DNA from: Alphaproteobacteria bacterium
GTDB lineage: Bacteria > Pseudomonadota > Alphaproteobacteria > M2410
Assembly (NCBI GenBank): GCA_030614785.1
Contig: JAUWTJ010000043.1
Coordinates: 1-35,368, forward strand
Length of the DNA: 35,368 bases
Direction: 5' to 3'
The notes under the pieces are model-generated. The model did not search any database. It worked only from the letters and a program-made list of their open reading frames with translations, and had not been told where the DNA came from. Shown here one piece after another: positions 3,543 through 34,841 of the stretch (position 1 is the first letter of the stretch; every line of letters starts with the position of its first letter). A program made the translations under genes and the position numbers.

Positions 3543-3578
3543 GAATGGGGTCTGTTCAGCAATGAGCGGACCCCGTTC
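3543..3578. terminator. Hairpin between convergent ilvC and lipoprotein gene
   Basis: GAATGGGGTCTG (3543-3554) pairs with CGGACCCCGTTC (3567-3578) over 12 positions, two of them G-T wobbles, around a 12-base loop. It lies just after ilvC and overlaps the stop of the convergent gene, so it could end transcription from both sides. The T-runs are weak, so the terminator call is inferred from position and stem strength. Confidence 0.5.
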
Positions 3579-4239
3579 ATTTGGTTCTGACAAGATCCGC
3601 AATTTCAAAGCCGAACAAGTCTTTGACCTCAAGAGCGTGGCCACCAACAAATTTCGTCAGGGAACCGCTTGATGAGGTCAGATAGAGCAGCTCGCCTTGT
3701 TCATTTTCCTCATCATATACGACGACAGTGCCGCCCTTGAGAATACCGGACTCCAGCGCCGTCTTGACGATCTCGCTCTCCTCATCGATCAAATATATCT
3801 CGAGATGTTCGAGCCCTTCCTCTTCACGGAACTCGTAATAGCCCAAATAGTATCCGTTCATGCGTTTGTCGCGATTTCGGAACTTCCGGCGGGCCTCGGT
3901 GTGGGAAATATCGTTTACCGCTGCATAGTCTTCAAGAAACTCTGCCGGAAAAAACTGCGTCACACTCAGGAAGCGCTTCTCTTTGATCTGACTTGGGAGA
4001 ACCGTGTAATATAGGCTTTTCGGTTCGCCTGCAGTATCCTCATCAAGCGTAGAGAATTTTAGTTTGAGAGTGTTGCGCCCCGACCGGGTGAACTTCATCT
4101 CGACATCGTCATTTTGCCAGACGCCAACCAGTTGCTGATCGAACACGCGATTACCAAGGGGATGCCTGGAGGACAGCGGGAAACATGCTGTGAGAAAGAG
4201 GGCCAGGAAAACGACTGCAGATTGTCTGGTCTTTGGCAT
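3577..4239 (-). CDS. Putative lipoprotein of unknown function
   Basis: I do not recognise the family. The start at 4239 is chosen because GGGGGA lies about 7 bases upstream and because it places a classic lipoprotein signal at the N-terminus: a positively charged start, a hydrophobic stretch at about 7-17, then the lipobox LTAC with Cys19 as the predicted lipidation site. An upstream in-frame ATG at 4269 would add ten charged residues and spoil the signal. The mature part (about 200 residues) is rich in charged residues and beta-type segments with no catalytic motif I can name. The gene is convergent with ilvC and probably monocistronic. Confidence 0.75.
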   Translation of the reverse strand: MPKTRQSAVVFLALFLTACFPLSSRHPLGNRVFDQQLVGVWQNDDVEMKFTRSGRNTLKLKFSTLDEDTAGEPKSLYYTVLPSQIKEKRFLSVTQFFPAEFLEDYAAVNDISHTEARRKFRNRDKRMNGYYLGYYEFREEEGLEHLEIYLIDEESEIVKTALESGILKGGTVVVYDEENEQGELLYLTSSSGSLTKFVGGHALEVKDLFGFEIADLVRTK

Positions 4240-4506
4240 CGTCGGTTCCCCCGGTTTTCGCTTCTCCATCGCGAGGCAAAGCTAACATTGAGCGATGGGT
4301 GTGGCAACTGAGCCTCGAAGGAGCAGAGACAGGCCTCAAACCTTGATCTATTTTTCACGATTGTAATTCTGTGCTTGCCAAACCAGGGTAAGTTCATCTT
4401 AATTGGCGCCAGCGAACTTTTGACGTGTTCCAACGTATTCATTGTTCGTTAACCAGGCGTGTACCAGTCTTGGTTCGGAAGCGAAGTCGTTGTTTTGGAA
4501 GCAGAA

Positions 4507-20302: not shown

Positions 20303-20804
20303 AGTCGTATTCCTTCTAAAGTCATAGTTTGTGCGTGACAGCAGTATGCAATCACGCGGGTACGACGTTCACAATGTCAGGAAAGCAGCTTGGCAGATCG
20401 CGCGTTCGCGAGGATCGTTCAGAGTGCGCACAAGACGAATGTGCAACGTGGTAAGGCCTCATATAAACTGTTACCTAACAATGTCAAGACGCATCCAGGG
20501 TGCCCAGGCGTTGCCGCATGCACGGAACGGAGAGCCGAAAATCCTTGATTCTCGTTTTGTCTTTGCCATCATGTCGAGCTGCAGAAAGTCCCGAGGGAAA
20601 TCTGCGGGGCCGACCGTCGGAACTGAGCCAACGAGGCATCTTGCAAAAACTTGTATATTATATGTTTAAAAGCAATGCATTGGCGAAGGAAGTTAACTTC
20701 CACAAAGCGTATCAAACGCTTAGGCCAAGTTGCAAATCTGAAAAATTCAATCCCAGGTATTATTTATTCGTGCATTGTTCAATCAAGTGACTTATTGTTT
20801 TTAC
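20303..20804. other. Divergent 502-base region between cold-shock and PAS genes
   Basis: The left part is the cold-shock gene leader and promoter. The right part (about 20640-20800) is clearly AT-richer than its surroundings and contains three dyads in 49 bases: CAATGCATTG (20673-20682), GGAAGTTAACTTCC (20688-20701) and AAGCGT-N5-ACGCTT (20705-20721). They lie 80-130 bases before the PAS-like gene and look like operator or control sites. Short ORFs here lack ribosome sites and family features. Confidence 0.45.
20460..20487 (-). promoter_or_regulatory. Sigma-70-type promoter for the cold-shock gene
   Basis: On the minus strand TTGACA (20482-20487) is followed after 16 bases by TATATG (20460-20465), a near-consensus -35/-10 pair. 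The predicted start near 20452 gives a 5' leader of about 150 bases before the ATG at 20302. Confidence 0.6.
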
Positions 20805-21290
20805 ATGGTCGCGACGAACTCTGGTCCTCTGGACGTTTCAGGAATGAATCTCAAACCCGTCAAATCCCTGGAGGATCTGGCGGGTGCTGTTTGTCGCGAG
20901 GTCTATGTCTACTGGGAAAAACTCAGGTCCTCAGGAAAGTTCGATGCTTTTGATTTGATCGATGTGCCGGATGTGATTCCCTACCTGGTGATTCTGGACC
21001 TTGAGGACGATGCGCCAACCTTCCGGTTTCGAATGTCAGGACAGGCCATTGTGGTGGCGTCTTCCGACCTGACCGGGCAACTTCTGGACAAGACCGGCAA
21101 GGTGGCACCTCTGACACTGAAGTTCTGTGAGGCCGTGGCGGAGACCATGGCTCCGGTATTTTCAAACGACAGGTTCGCCATCGAGTTTACGGGTCTGACA
21201 AGGCGGTTCAGTGAAAGCGTTGCTTTGCCTTTGCTTGACGGCAATGGAAAGTTGAGCCGTATTCTCCTGGTTCATTGCCCTGAAGTGTAG
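20805..21290 (+). CDS. PAS-like (PAS_5-type) domain protein
   Basis: About 161 residues. The middle part (IPYLVILDLEDDAPTFRFRMSGQAIV, then DLTGQLLD, and a C-terminal beta region VALPLLDGNGKLSRILLVHCPE) resembles the short PAS-like proteins widespread in Alphaproteobacteria, which usually have no output domain. The role is unknown; a sensory or regulatory function is inferred from the fold. The start is uncertain: ATG 20805 and ATG 20844 both lack a clear ribosome site, and a TTG at 20775 is also in frame. A small hairpin follows it. A histidine kinase lies 182 bases downstream in the same orientation. Confidence 0.7.
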   Translation: MVATNSGPLDVSGMNLKPVKSLEDLAGAVCREVYVYWEKLRSSGKFDAFDLIDVPDVIPYLVILDLEDDAPTFRFRMSGQAIVVASSDLTGQLLDKTGKVAPLTLKFCEAVAETMAPVFSNDRFAIEFTGLTRRFSESVALPLLDGNGKLSRILLVHCPEV

Positions 21291-21472: not shown

Positions 21473-22813
21473 ATGAGATTTTGGAGTGTCATTGACGCCA
21501 TTGGGCGCGTTGATTGCCATGGCGATCTGGTGCGTCTTGTCCGCCTTCGGCTGCTTGTTCTCTTTGCACTGATGATTGGCGGTTCCTCCACATTTGTGGT
21601 CGGCTATATGTTAATTACCGCCTCCGACACCGGCACTTCTCTGCAGATGTCTATAGTCATCGTCCTGCTCTTCTGGGCAATCCTTCCGATATTGTGGCTG
21701 AGCAAATCGATCAACAAAGCCAGCTGGTTTATGTTGATTGTGGGCACTAGCCCGTTGATATTGAGTGCTGCGTTGCGAGGCGGTGTAGATTCCCCGGCCA
21801 CAGTGTATCTCGTCGTTGCCCCGGTCTTTGGCGGGCTCTTGTTGGGATATCGCGGCGCTGTCATCATGTCGATTTTTAACGGACTTGGGATTGTTGGTCT
21901 GATCGCGTTGAGCTACACCAACCTGGAATTTGTTGAGCCCTTTTCGCCCGATGTTGCGCGGATATACTATTCCTTCTCCTATGTGATTACTCTTGCAGTG
22001 CTCAGTGGAGCAACAATCTGTTTTGTGGTTCTGTCCGGTTACACCCGGCAGCAACTGGAGTTGGCCAGGCTGGCTGCCGAGACTTCCGATCGTGCCAAGA
22101 GTGAATTCCTTGCCACCATGAGCCATGAGATCCGCACACCTCTTAATGGCATCCTGGGGATGACAGAGATATTGGCCAACGGTGATCTGTCCGACAAACA
22201 GCGCGCAAGAATGGGAATCATCAGGGAGTCCGGCGAGGGTTTGCTGGCAATCATTAGCGATATTCTTGACGTATCGAAGCTCGACGCTGGTCAGGTTGAG
22301 CTTGAGAACCTGGTTTTCTCTCCGGAAAGCATCATTCGATCAACCCATGAAATTCTCAGATCCAAGATGGAGGAGAAAAATCTGACTTTTGTGGTTGATA
22401 TTCACGAGGGTCTTGGAAAGATCAATGCTGATCCAACCCGAATAAGACAGGTTCTTATCAATTTGGTCGGCAATGCCACCAAGTTCACCAATGACGGATC
22501 AATCACAGTGTCCGCCGCCGTCGCTGAAAAATACGCCGACTACCAACTGGTCAGATTTGAGGTGCGAGACACCGGCATTGGTATTCCTGCCGAAGCACAG
22601 CACAGGCTGTTTCATGAATTTACACAGGCCGATAGTTCCACAGTCCGACAATATGGCGGGACCGGGCTCGGTTTGGCCATCTGTGATCGGTTGGCTTCCC
22701 TGATGGGCGGGGAGATCGGCGTTGAGAGTGAAGAGGGAGTGGGATCAATGTTCTGGTTCACGGTCAAGGCGGGGATGCCGCCGGAAGCGAGCATGGAAGC
22801 GACCAGGATTTAA
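21473..22813 (+). CDS. Membrane sensor histidine kinase
   Basis: 446 residues from ATG 21473, which has AGAGGAG upstream; a longer TTG start at 21431 lacks one. The N-terminal part (about 25-188) has about six hydrophobic segments with short loops and no large periplasmic domain, suggesting sensing within or at the membrane. The HisKA domain has the H box [10 protein letters not shown] with H218, and the HATPase domain has the N box ([13 protein letters not shown], about 330-342), G1 (DTGIGIP, 366-372) and G2 (GGTGLGLAI, 395-403). There is no attached receiver and no adjacent regulator gene, so it is an orphan kinase. The two single-domain regulators 7 kb upstream are possible but unproven partners. 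Confidence 0.92.
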
Positions 22814-22824
22814 TGTCCCGGGCT

Positions 22825-23964
22825 TCAACTCGGGGACGCGCCATTATAAATTTCATCAAGAGTGTCCCAGGTCGATGACGTGTTGATGGCCTGGTTGGTT
22901 GCTGCGGCTTCGTCGATCATCATGACGGTGAGACCGGCCTCGATGGCTTCCTTCGTTGTTTGCCCGAACGTGCCTTTGCCCTCGACCCATGACACAACTG
23001 CCTTCGCCATTTCATCGTCAGCGCCATAGTGATTGCTGAAGCCACCCGGGAACCTTGTTTCTTGCGGCGCGTCGAAGGTAAAGTTTCCATGCGCCATGGC
23101 GGAGTTCGTCTCAAAGTCAGCGCGGATGAGAGTATCGCGGCAAGTCAACATGAGGCGGCGCTGACGCATCGCTGCGTGCGAGTTGAGAAGGAAGGTGGCC
23201 ATGGTGCCGGACGGATATTTCAGGATCGCAACCTGTGCATCATGGATATCCTTGTCGGTCCCAAAGGCATCATCCGTCCCGGACCATCCCGCATCAATGA
23301 TCTGGTAGTTGTCTTCTGTGTCAGGGGGGCGATTGCCGGGTTTGAACACGGCGTTTTTGCCAAAGCTGGCAATGGTTGCGGGCCGTCCGCGCGCCAGAAG
23401 ATTGATCAGGTCAAGGTCATGGCACGCCTTGTCGAGAAGCAGCGAGCCGCCAAGGTCAGATCGACGGCGCCAGTTGCGCATGATGTAGGAGCCGTGCTCG
23501 GGATGGAGCAATTCGTTGGCCTCAATGGTTACGATCTGCTGATCTCGCGTTGTAGATGTGAGGTGTTTGACCAGAGGTGCAAAGCGCAGGACAAACCCGA
23601 ACACCAGCCCACACTCAAAATCATCCGCCATGTCTCGCCGGGCAAGGTCAAGGGATTGCTCCCTGTTAAGAACGGCCGGTTTTTCGCAAAAGATCTTCGA
23701 GTTGAACCGACGCGCCGCGTCAAGGTGTTCAAGGTGGAGATGATTGGGCGAGCCGATCAGAACGAGATCAAGCGCGCCTGGCTCCATAGTCAACTCCAGA
23801 TCATCGAAGATCCGCGCATCGGGGACCTTGAAATCACTGGCGATTTTCTCGAACAGATGTGTCGAGGGATCAGCGATAAAGGCGATCTCGACATCAACAC
23901 ATTTGGCGATGTTCCGGATGATGGTTTGCATTCTCTGTCCACATCCGATGATGCCAAGTCTCAT
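22825..23964 (-). CDS. Gfo/Idh/MocA family oxidoreductase
   Basis: NAD(P)-dependent dehydrogenase of the glucose-fructose/inositol dehydrogenase family, 379 residues. The N-terminal Rossmann fold has GIIGCGQRMQ (4-13), and the family signature EKP is at 94-96 with K95 the expected catalytic lysine. The C-terminal alpha/beta domain contains GGSLLLDKACHDLDLINLL, with the Asp and His expected near the substrate. The substrate is unknown. Its ATG overlaps the stop of the upstream deformylase-like gene by four bases (23961-23964), so the two are translationally coupled. It converges on the kinase gene with an 11-base gap spanned by a GTCCC/GGGAC dyad. Confidence 0.9.
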   Translation of the reverse strand: MRLGIIGCGQRMQTIIRNIAKCVDVEIAFIADPSTHLFEKIASDFKVPDARIFDDLELTMEPGALDLVLIGSPNHLHLEHLDAARRFNSKIFCEKPAVLNREQSLDLARRDMADDFECGLVFGFVLRFAPLVKHLTSTTRDQQIVTIEANELLHPEHGSYIMRNWRRRSDLGGSLLLDKACHDLDLINLLARGRPATIASFGKNAVFKPGNRPPDTEDNYQIIDAGWSGTDDAFGTDKDIHDAQVAILKYPSGTMATFLLNSHAAMRQRRLMLTCRDTLIRADFETNSAMAHGNFTFDAPQETRFPGGFSNHYGADDEMAKAVVSWVEGKGTFGQTTKEAIEAGLTVMMIDEAAATNQAINTSSTWDTLDEIYNGASPS

Positions 23965-24470
23965 GCGCCGCTTCTTTTCAGTCTCGCCATCTTCTTCAAC
24001 AACATGTTTCGTTTTGTCACCGACAGGTGATCAAGATAGATACGGCCATCAAGATAATCCATCTCATGCTGGATCACAGTCGAAAGCAAACCGGTCGCCT
24101 CGTGGGTTCGGGATTGCCCGTCGGTATCAAGACACGTGACTTCGATTGATGCAGGGCGTCGGATTTTGGCCGCGATGCCGGGAAAACTCAGTGAAGCTTC
24201 CTCGAAAACATGAGTTTCCTTCGATGCCTGCGTGACAACGGGGTTGATCATCGCCAGCGGGCTCTTCTTGCCGTCTTCCTGGAGATCCACGACAATAATT
24301 CGTCTCAGAAGCCCCACCATATTGGCGCCAAGACCGAGGCCTTGCTCCCGGTAAAGCGTCTCGAACATGGCGGCGACTTGCGCGCGGGTTTCATCATCGA
24401 CTGCTGCGACAGGCTCGGCGACCTGGCGAAAGACTGGATCGGGGGCAATAACAAGCGAGAGTGAAATCAT
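23961..24470 (-). CDS. Peptide-deformylase-like protein with altered active site
   Basis: 169 residues that align along their length with peptide deformylase: an N-terminal PDPVFRQVAEPV, a motif-1 region, the INP segment, a motif-2 region, and the C-terminal GRIYLDHLS. The catalytic motifs are degraded. Motif 1 GxGLAAxQ reads GLGLGANM (44-51), losing the Gln. Motif 2 EGCLS reads EASLS (91-95), replacing the metal-binding Cys by Ser93. Motif 3 QHExDHLxG reads QHEMDYLDG, keeping H135 and E136 but replacing the last His ligand with Tyr139. Normal deformylation is therefore unlikely; an altered metal site, a binding role or a pseudo-enzyme are options. It overlaps the following oxidoreductase gene by four bases. 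No clear ribosome site precedes the ATG. Confidence 0.85.
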   Translation of the reverse strand: MISLSLVIAPDPVFRQVAEPVAAVDDETRAQVAAMFETLYREQGLGLGANMVGLLRRIIVVDLQEDGKKSPLAMINPVVTQASKETHVFEEASLSFPGIAAKIRRPASIEVTCLDTDGQSRTHEATGLLSTVIQHEMDYLDGRIYLDHLSVTKRNMLLKKMARLKRSGA

Positions 24471-24647
24471 AGTTGATAAGTATCAGACAGGGTGGGCTGG
24501 AGGGCAAGGGCATTGTCGATGGGTTTTGAGTCTCTTCGTGCGGTCATGCTACCCCAAAGCTCGACCCATTCCAATCTGATGTTCACATCTTGACCGCGGG
24601 CGCGGAGGGGATAGGCTTCTCATTGACCAGATCATCAGGAGGGTTTA

Positions 24648-25562
24648 ATGAGCTACGAAACTGTCAAATACTCTGTTGCAGGCCGCATCGCCACCATCAG
24701 TCTCAACCGCCCGGACAAGTTCAACAATATTCGTCCCCCCATGCCGGACGATATTCATGAGGCGCTGGGTGAAGCCAACCATGATCCCGAAGTTCGCGTC
24801 ATCATACTGCAGGGCGAGGGGGACAGCTTTTGCGCCGGGTTCGACTTTTCCGATGGTCTTGAACAATACGGCGCCTGGGGGATAGGCAGTAGCGACAATG
24901 TGTTTGAAGGCGGGGACAAACACTGGAACCCCGGGGCTGATTTCATGACAACCACCAGCCCGTTTCATGGACCCGTCCCGAGATTTATGAGTATCTGGCG
25001 CAGCCCCAAGCCTGTGATCACAAAAATTCATGGCTGGTGTGTCGGTGGCGGCTCCGAGATGGGGCTGCTCGGCGATATCGTCATAGCCTCGGAGGATGCA
25101 CAGATCGGCACGCCCTATTCACGGGTCTGGGGGTGCCATCTTACCGGCATGTGGATCTACCGCCTCGGCCTAACGCGCGCCAAGGAGTATGCGCTGACCG
25201 GCAAGTCCCTTTCCGGCAAGGAGGCCGCCGAGATCGGTTTGATCAATCACGCGGTTACTCTGGAGGAACTCGACGACTACGTCCAGGCCTATGCGGAAAA
25301 GATGGCCGGAATTCCGGTGACGCAGCTCGCCGCCATGAAGCTTATCGTCAATCAAGCGTTCGATAACATGGGGCTGCAGACAACCCAGACCATGGGTGTG
25401 ATGATGGACGGCATGATGCGCAACACGCCGGAGGGCAGGGAGTTTATCCGCAAAGCGAAAGCCGAAGGCGTCGGCGCCGTTATCGCTGACCGCGATGGTC
25501 CGTTTGAAGACTATAGCCAGGGCGGCAAGGACAACAAGCCGAGGCGCAAAAGCGAGCTGTAG
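24648..25562 (+). CDS. Enoyl-CoA hydratase/isomerase (crotonase) family protein
   Basis: 304 residues, longer than the usual 260 because of an insertion at about 75-105 and a charged C-terminal tail. Oxyanion-hole elements are CAGFDF (about 64-69) and CVGGGSE (about 130-136). The first catalytic Glu position (GGGSE) is kept, but the second is not: IGTPYSR where hydratases have PE. Function other than simple hydration, for example isomerisation, dehalogenation or thioester hydrolysis, is therefore possible. AGGAGGG lies six bases before the ATG. It stands alone, convergent with a second crotonase across a palindromic repeat. Confidence 0.88.
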   Translation: MSYETVKYSVAGRIATISLNRPDKFNNIRPPMPDDIHEALGEANHDPEVRVIILQGEGDSFCAGFDFSDGLEQYGAWGIGSSDNVFEGGDKHWNPGADFMTTTSPFHGPVPRFMSIWRSPKPVITKIHGWCVGGGSEMGLLGDIVIASEDAQIGTPYSRVWGCHLTGMWIYRLGLTRAKEYALTGKSLSGKEAAEIGLINHAVTLEELDDYVQAYAEKMAGIPVTQLAAMKLIVNQAFDNMGLQTTQTMGVMMDGMMRNTPEGREFIRKAKAEGVGAVIADRDGPFEDYSQGGKDNKPRRKSEL

Positions 25563-25603
25563 GTTCTGCGGTGTTCTTTGGAGCCGTCTCTTTCCGAAAG
25601 GAA

Positions 25604-25709
25604 GTCATCCTCGGGCACCCGAAGGGTGAGCCGGGGATCTTCTCTCTGGTCATTCATTCTCCTGCCAGAAGATCCCCGGCCTCGACCTATCGGTCGAGCC
25701 GAGGATGAC
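25604..25709. repeat. Branched palindromic intergenic repeat (REP-like), 106 bases
   Basis: The outer arms GTCATCCTCGG (25604-25614) and CCGAGGATGAC (25699-25709) are perfect inverted copies. The inner arms CCGGGGATCTTCT (25631-25643) and AGAAGATCCCCGG (25667-25679) are also perfect. Between them lie two side hairpins: CACCC-GAA-GGGTG on the left and CTCGACC-TATC-GGTCGAG (25681-25698) on the right. The folded form is cloverleaf-like. GTCATCCTCGG and GGGGATCTTC resemble the core of dispersed alphaproteobacterial intergenic repeats. It lies between convergent genes and may also stop transcription from both sides. Only one copy is in this window. Confidence 0.8.
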
Positions 25710-33803: not shown

Positions 33804-34841
33804 TCAGGCAACCGTCTTGAACGCATCGGGAACCAGCACGGGATGGGGTGGTGGAAAGTGAATGTAGGTCGAGATCAGCGCGTGCATAAGATCGTCGGCG
33901 GAAGGCTCCTCAGCGCCAAGGGCGCCGCGATCACGCAGGTCTTTGGCCAGGGTTTCAAGAATGAACGGCAGCGCCAGATCATCTGATTTGTCACGCCACA
34001 TCCGTTGTTCGGTTTCATCGCGGAAGCAATAGGCCTTCCAGGAAACTGACAGACGCATGTCCTGCCAGTCATAGCTCTCCATTTTAATATCACCATCTGT
34101 CAGCCGCCATTGACCTTTACCCTCCGGCACAATCTTCATGCTGCGCTTCAGCACGGGTAGGGGCCTGCCACGTTCCTGCATCCGGCCGACACCGTGAAAT
34201 ACGCTGTCTGTATCGATGATGACGGCAGTGTTCGCCTTGATTTCGTGCACCACGGCCTCACCGTCAGCCCCATCGGGGTAAAACACAAAGGCACCGCCGT
34301 CGGCATCGTGATACCAGGAAACGCAGGTCGCAATCGGCATGTGCCAGTCTTCAAACAGACCGGAGTGCTTCATCACAACAAGCAGCCATTGCGGCAGGAC
34401 TTTTCGATTGGCGCCGCGAAACTCGGGAACATCAGTATGGCAAGCCAGCTCCTGGCCCGGCAAAAAGAGATTGGCAAAGACAATCGCCGGCTCAATGACG
34501 GCCCGCCCATGAATGGCTTTGGCCGCTTCAATCATACCCTCATGGTGGACAAAGGGTTCAATGCCCGGCGCGTAGATCTCGTCACCATAGGCATAGGTCT
34601 CGCGGAAGTAGTTTGTCCGGCTGGCAATGAGCCTGTAGTCGCGTTCCGCATCCGGCACGTGGGCGTGGGCCGCCATGTAGTTCAGAACCGCATCGTACCT
34701 CTGTGGCTTGCTCTCGCCAATGCCCCGGTTAAGACCTTCCTGGGAATACATGCCATGAGCGCCGAAAGCCTCGGCCAGCTTTTTGACTCCGTCGGCCTCA
34801 TCTTCCAGGAACAGCGGGTCAAACAGCGTGTATTCGGTCAT
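33804..34841 (-). CDS. Putative 2-oxoglutarate/Fe(II)-type oxygenase
   Basis: 345 residues. ACHTDVPEFRG gives an H135-x-D137 pair and DSVFHGVGR gives a distal H216, spaced as in the facial triad of 2OG-Fe(II) dioxygenases. R226 lies 10 residues after the distal His, where the 2-oxoglutarate carboxylate is usually bound. The region between (WYHDADGGAFVFYPDG, VVHEIKANTAVIIDTDS) looks like the double-stranded beta-helix strands. I cannot name the subfamily or substrate. AAGGAGA lies 8 bases before the ATG. It stands alone on the minus strand, convergent with the OYE gene. Confidence 0.65.
   Translation of the reverse strand: MTEYTLFDPLFLEDEADGVKKLAEAFGAHGMYSQEGLNRGIGESKPQRYDAVLNYMAAHAHVPDAERDYRLIASRTNYFRETYAYGDEIYAPGIEPFVHHEGMIEAAKAIHGRAVIEPAIVFANLFLPGQELACHTDVPEFRGANRKVLPQWLLVVMKHSGLFEDWHMPIATCVSWYHDADGGAFVFYPDGADGEAVVHEIKANTAVIIDTDSVFHGVGRMQERGRPLPVLKRSMKIVPEGKGQWRLTDGDIKMESYDWQDMRLSVSWKAYCFRDETEQRMWRDKSDDLALPFILETLAKDLRDRGALGAEEPSADDLMHALISTYIHFPPPHPVLVPDAFKTVA

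Follow-up and report, generated by a model that had tools for sequence, protein, structure and literature searches.

A conserved alphaproteobacterial family of peptide deformylase homologues without two metal ligands and the motif I glutamine

Results

A deformylase homologue with three altered motifs

The window, by which we mean the whole 35,368-nucleotide stretch of DNA analysed here, carries on its minus strand a gene for a protein of the peptide deformylase (PDF) fold in which each of the three catalytic motifs has a replaced residue. The features are as follows.

23961..24470, minus strand: pseudo-deformylase gene, a 169-amino-acid frame from ATG to stop; PF01327 at 2.7e-43
24318..24341, minus strand: motif I, GLGLGANM, residues 44-51, with Met51 (24318-24320) for the oxyanion Gln
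24186..24203, minus strand: motif II, EEASLS, residues 90-95, with Ser93 (24192-24194) for the metal Cys
24045..24071, minus strand: motif III, QHEMDYLDG, residues 134-142, with His135 and Glu136 kept and Tyr139 (24054-24056) for the second metal His
23973..24020, minus strand: C-terminal helix, residues 151-166 of the AlphaFold2 model, equivalent to the helix by which E. coli PDF docks at the ribosome
22825-23964, minus strand: neighbouring gene for a Gfo/Idh/MocA oxidoreductase

The plus strand of 23961-24470 contains stops. On the minus strand, the Pfam domain Pep_deformylase (PF01327) covers residues 6-154 of the protein (E 2.7e-43), and the curated cut-offs of two NCBIfam models are exceeded (TIGR00079, 144.3 against 103.95; NF001159, 141.2 against 125), while the score stays below the cut-offs of the other four models that match. 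By alignment with a solved PDF, Met51, Ser93, and Tyr139 stand at what we take to be Gln50, Cys90, and His136 of the E. coli enzyme, and His135 and Glu136 presumably correspond to E. coli His132 and Glu133. Measured against the motifs of ordinary PDFs, the protein has no Gln in motif I as worded in PMC12690207 (GLGLGANM), no metal Cys in motif II (EEASLS for EGCLS), and HEMDY in place of HEXXH in motif III, where the first His and the Glu are present and the second His is Tyr; our search pattern for motif III matches the window at 24052-24071. The initial annotation, which named no strand, had described a change of Cys to Ser, of the last His to Tyr, and of the motif I Gln to Met in a protein whose first His and Glu remained and which was otherwise intact. 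The minus-strand translation bears out all three replacements, His135 and Glu136 are indeed retained, and the open frame, the PF01327 match over residues 6-154, and the predicted fold agree with an intact remainder.

Structure prediction, a check suggested at that stage, gives an intact PDF fold: the AlphaFold2 model built with a 26-row alignment has a pLDDT of 96.6 and a pTM of 0.91, and its best solved matches are PDFs from Burkholderia and E. coli (VIA Z 27.8; Foldseek), with a Z of 27.8 and an rmsd of 1.5 over 167 residues to E. coli PDF and Foldseek TM values of 0.86-0.96, mostly 0.91-0.94, to E. coli PDF entries. The model also predicts the C-terminal helix of type 1B PDFs with its basic ribosome-docking face. 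In E. coli PDF this helix contacts uL22 and 23S rRNA, according to the available text of PMC12690207. The equivalents of E. coli K150, K157, and K160 are Lys or Arg in 26/27, 27/27, and 27/27 family rows, and the equivalent of R153 is not kept, as is also the case in most normal alphaproteobacterial copies; since the helix residues are identical in normal alphaproteobacterial PDFs, their conservation may reflect inheritance only.

The replacements are fixed across a family

Relatives with the same Met/Ser/Tyr pattern were sought, and 30 other distinct members were found. A scan of genome_contigs returned 44 loci, 25 with Met/Ser/Tyr and 19 encoding normal PDFs. The proteins of the 25 loci are 46-65% identical to the window protein, and their sources include Sneathiella chinensis, S. 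glossodoripedis, Kordiimonas marina, K. laminariae, and Pseudokordiimonas caeni, together with an Emcibacteraceae MAG and MAGs labelled Rickettsiales or Rickettsia typhi (labels as deposited). Five more distinct members (L084, L085, L146, L152, and L153) complete a family that spans Sneathiellales, Kordiimonadales, Emcibacteraceae, and several "Rickettsiales"-labelled MAGs. Positions 51, 93, 135, 136, and 139 are M, S, H, E, and Y in all 31 distinct members, window included, whereas Gln, Cys, and His occupy the three replaced places in 72/72 canonical rows; because the replacements occur in 31/31 family members and 0/72 canonical rows, chance is excluded for the pattern. As far as sequence can tell, the residue set needed for a Cys-His-His metal site is incomplete in the family protein, and the Gln that contacts the oxyanion is missing. 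Orthologues with normal motifs in close relatives, which would have spoken for recent decay, were not found; among relatives with normal motifs, the nearest are ordinary def copies and not orthologues. The occurrence of the same pattern in 31/31 distinct members also disposes of a sequencing error or single-genome oddity, and an in-frame stop in L152 was only apparent, being the natural stop of that protein.

The pocket around the replacements is altered as well. In a comparison of 27 family with 72 canonical rows, which was also used for the docking-helix residues and from which we dropped a spurious ORF (L041_0) and the distant canonical sequences L002, L075, L079, L080, L081, and L112, the clade has Val132, Ala92, Phe/Tyr96, Gly98, and Ile99 fixed or nearly so, which argues for a remade pocket and not random loss. 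The loop after motif II is newly fixed as FPGI, and both pocket cysteines of normal PDFs are gone, one replaced by Ser93 and the other mostly by Val132. Cys is found at position 95 in 10/31 members. Separately, motif II of L045:8001-8540 reads EEASRS, with Arg for the usual Leu beside Ser93.

In a tree built with the trait columns removed, the 31 family rows form one clade (SH-aLRT 99.7; L190, L023, and L184_rhodo3, the last of which represents one gene with L191, were left out). A more careful tree, built from 67 of the 131 rows, again unites the family, there represented by 17 rows, in one clade, with 97 bootstrap but 65 SH-aLRT. The clade branches among alphaproteobacterial normal PDF copies, and, judged by eye, normal PDFs from the same genomes tend to sit on shorter branches than its members. 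Synonymous sites are saturated in most family pairs; in the two closest pairs dN/dS is 0.096 and 0.087, and for the window gene against that of S. chinensis it is roughly 0.142, at a dS of 2.2. Among 26 genes, Ser93 is encoded by all four TCN codons and Tyr139 by both TAY codons, and mean column entropy is 1.42 bits in the family against 1.50 bits in normal PDFs. These substitution patterns show purifying selection acting on the replaced residues.

An accessory gene beside normal PDF copies

The exact motif is found in one of four genomes of the window's order, the window's own (the other three are 80-87% complete), in at least 3/385 genomes drawn from the class, and in at least 11/29 genomes of the family of the Kordiimonas marina genome. 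In the Sneathiella-type family (that of G044) it is found in 8/25 genomes and a variant in two more, at least 10/25 in total; 12 of the 17 genomes without the exact motif were examined by protein, and 2/12 had a member. The DNA pattern used for the exact motif misses HEIDYL and HEVDYL, so the counts for the class, the Sneathiella-type family, and the Kordiimonas-type family are lower bounds. This patchy distribution indicates that the gene is accessory and often absent.

The window genome has three PF01327 copies, of which the window copy is the accessory one. Of the others, that on contig C135 has GAGLAAPQ, EGCLS, and HECDH, and that on contig C5 has GIGLAAVQ, EEGCLS, and QHEMDH and is followed by fmt and truA (recognised from translations), so that the normal def next to fmt which the initial annotation had thought worth looking for is present, as def-fmt-truA. 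More broadly, at least one further PDF is found in 24/24 searched genomes carrying the family (the L036 genome lies outside the count); the best-scoring PDF copy has the Gln, the Cys, and both His in all 24, and in 17/24 an fmt motif lies in the same short locus as the canonical copy.

Roughly half of the family carries a C-terminal extension that is probably a metal-binding element. At least four His or Cys residues follow position 163 in 15/31 members (L037, L040, L042, L043, L045-L052, L055, L057, and L076), against 0/24 normal copies of the same genomes, in the form HVHxxxCxH or CxDPxC. The other 16/31, including the window protein and the Sneathiella members, have no such tail. In the one tailed member modelled, from Kordiimonas marina, it is predicted to be disordered (residues 169-195, pLDDT <50).

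Genomic context

The ATG of the Gfo/Idh/MocA gene overlaps the stop of the pseudo-deformylase gene by four bases, a possible case of translational coupling. This overlapping arrangement is absent from the other family loci compared, and no neighbour family recurs across lineages among 26 loci, so a conserved operon, including one with the Gfo/Idh/MocA gene, can be set aside. Promoter-like sites in 22600-25700 are not in excess (2 against a shuffle mean of 1.4). A viral or plasmid origin was rejected as well: viral_contigs holds no relative, and neither plasmids (994 records) nor phages (122 records) hold a match of ≥60% identity, identity being the sole measure used. Elsewhere in the window, three frames have no Pfam match, 33804-34841 (minus strand, 345 aa), 3577-4269 (minus strand, 230 aa), and 20775-21290 (plus strand, 171 aa), the last having no NCBIfam match either.

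Other PDF lineages with Ser for Cys

A Rhodobacteraceae-type family (that of G025; we infer the name from its tree neighbour, Amaricoccus/Paracoccaceae) has a third def copy in 12/13 genomes; in 12/12 copies the metal Cys is replaced by Ser and the catalytic Glu by Gln, and an fmt motif lies beside 10/12 (loci L191-L202, for example, L191:1501-1992). By these residues it is a second conserved, putative pseudo-deformylase. Like the family described here it is accessory and has Ser for the metal Cys in 12/12 copies; unlike that family it keeps the Gln and both His, has the catalytic Glu changed to Gln, and lies beside fmt. In the careful tree it groups with the normal copies of its own family (93/96). 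In a further family of three genomes (L188, L205, L206, L207/L208), the three catalytic places of a def-like protein are occupied by His, Ser, and Gln, and the member scanned scores 258.9 with NF009484 against a cut-off of 190 and would thus be named peptide deformylase. A single origin of the Ser-for-Cys PDFs is not rejected with the quick tree (p-AU 0.82, the tree constrained to one origin being 39.8 log units better), whereas with the careful tree (67 of the 131 rows) the constrained tree is worse by 32.3 (p-AU 0.10) and separate origins are favoured. These lineages probably arose in parallel.

Discussion

The same replacements in relatives from several bacterial orders point to a second job that has been kept, and not to a broken gene. 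The initial annotation had likewise suggested a repurposed protein rather than decay, a suggestion that gains support, at the level of sequence, from the shared pattern, the normal def beside fmt, the purifying selection, and the intact predicted fold. The patchy presence of the gene, and the freedom of a spare def copy to decay, would suit a recent decay; against this, 31/31 frames read through with the same replacements and dN/dS is about 0.09 in the closest pairs, and we reject decay as very improbable.

Our preferred but tentative interpretation is that the family is an old, conserved alphaproteobacterial clade of pseudo-deformylases that have been maintained to bind at the ribosome exit or to nascent N-termini, a function that we infer. 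Deformylation by the usual Fe(II) chemistry would be lost in such a protein. It might dock at the ribosome exit via its C-terminal helix and there perhaps hold nascent N-termini uncut, or occupy the docking site; it could then compete with or delay normal PDF, so that retention of N-formyl-Met would shift under some condition. These later steps are less sure than the loss of the usual chemistry. The retained docking-helix lysines count in favour of binding, as does the degenerate Rhodobacteraceae-type PDF beside fmt, and there is a precedent for blocked deformylation in SRP, which holds the nascent chain and so blocks the reaction, as the available part of PMC5454389 describes. Several observations count against it: the invariance of His135 and Glu136 goes beyond what docking needs and would suit a working site, no conserved neighbour points to translation, the patchiness of the family implies a dispensable job, and binding leaves the His/Cys tail unexplained.

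The main rival to binding is a rebuilt active site, in which Ser93, His135, Tyr139, and Glu136 (with Met51) would bind a harder metal, or act metal-free, and hydrolyse some other N-terminal or small-molecule acyl group. We consider this unlikely overall: we know of no precedent for a Ser/His/Tyr metal site in the PDF fold, and Cys at position 95 in 10/31 members misfits a thiol-free design. In its favour, 31/31 members share an invariant His135 and Glu136 alongside Ser93 and Tyr139; in addition, both pocket cysteines of normal PDFs are lost and the FPGI loop is fixed anew. A rebuilt site free of thiol at the old metal place would resist oxidation and NO, and in the passages available Cys90 of Salmonella PDF is the target of NO (PMC7683392) and PMC12690207 raises, as speculation, a switch of type 3 PDFs to other metals during oxidative stress. 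It is less probable, and in our judgement rather doubtful, that the protein is still a weak or conditional deformylase, as has been proposed for type 3 PDFs. All 26 scanned members match TIGR00079, with all three scores available over the cut-off, and the accessible text of PMC12690207 describes T. brucei type 3 PDFs that are active despite motif changes; against this, 31/31 members have lost two of the three metal ligands along with the oxyanion Gln, and in Salmonella PDF, by the portion of PMC7683392 at hand, Cys90 is required for activity and C90S alone abolishes function, the mutant copy failing to rescue. A role in metal handling, in which a metal-free PDF body would load or store metal for the normal PDF via the His/Cys tail, has the tail itself in its favour (15/31 members, 0/24 canonical copies, predicted to be disordered in the one modelled), but 16/31 members, the window protein included, are tailless and no neighbour family is recurrent across lineages, and we regard it as a poor prospect.

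A bolder picture that draws on several of these ideas, and that we offer as speculation more apt to be wrong than right, is of a PDF-fold protein with either a rebuilt Met/Ser/His/Glu/Tyr site that acts on nascent N-termini by a different chemistry or a role as a non-cutting guard of N-formyl-Met at the ribosome exit, the His/Cys tail in half of the family serving as a metal loader. Separate Ser-for-Cys origins in at least three alphaproteobacterial lineages would then make loss of the metal site a recurrent route to that job.

PDF is an essential enzyme and an antibiotic target, and automatic annotation gives the name "peptide deformylase" to copies with a PDF score; here, a whole conserved clade matches TIGR00079 although it is without two of the three metal ligands. 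Counts of def genes overstate the number of working deformylases. If deformylation is modulated at the ribosome, bacteria would have a means to tune N-formyl-Met retention, and if the chemistry is new, the fold of an essential enzyme would have been reused.

Comparison with known systems

The closest known system is the type 1B PDF (def; PF01327, TIGR00079; E. coli PDF), with which the family shares fold, length, C-terminal helix, the first metal His, and the catalytic Glu; the window protein is 38-40% identical to E. coli PDF and other type 1B structures. Unlike type 1B PDFs, the family has Cys changed to Ser, the second metal His to Tyr, and the motif I Gln to Met, along with Val132 and the FPGI loop. 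Among NCBIfam models, NF009484 (PRK12846.1-5) is the best-scoring specific model for some members and matches 26/26 (E up to 0.001), but the window protein (130.7) and L042 (161.8) are below its curated cut-off of 190 bits. The scanned member of the three-genome family described above exceeds that cut-off, and this lineage differs from the window's family in having other replacement residues and in being separate in the careful tree. Our literature search, with subscription papers and UniProt outside its scope, turned up no description of the clade; UniProt presumably holds entries named "peptide deformylase-like". The available text of PMC12690207, which gives updated motifs in 80% of bacterial PDFs and regards the activity of type 3 copies as absent, weak, or conditional, does not describe it either.

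Type 3 PDFs are weakly active or inactive PDFs, by the portions of PMC5591237 and PMC12690207 available to us, and like the family they are homologues with substituted motifs that in some bacteria are accessory beside a normal PDF. As the same sources have it, their changes lie in motifs I and II (PMC12690207) and the length of their C-termini is not conserved (PMC5591237), whereas the family is changed in motif III as well and keeps the type 1B helix; on these published descriptions it is provisionally set apart here from type 3. Accessory PDFs with lost catalytic residues are known as a kind, and the present family goes beyond what a random spare copy would show, both in its conservation and in the extent of its alteration.
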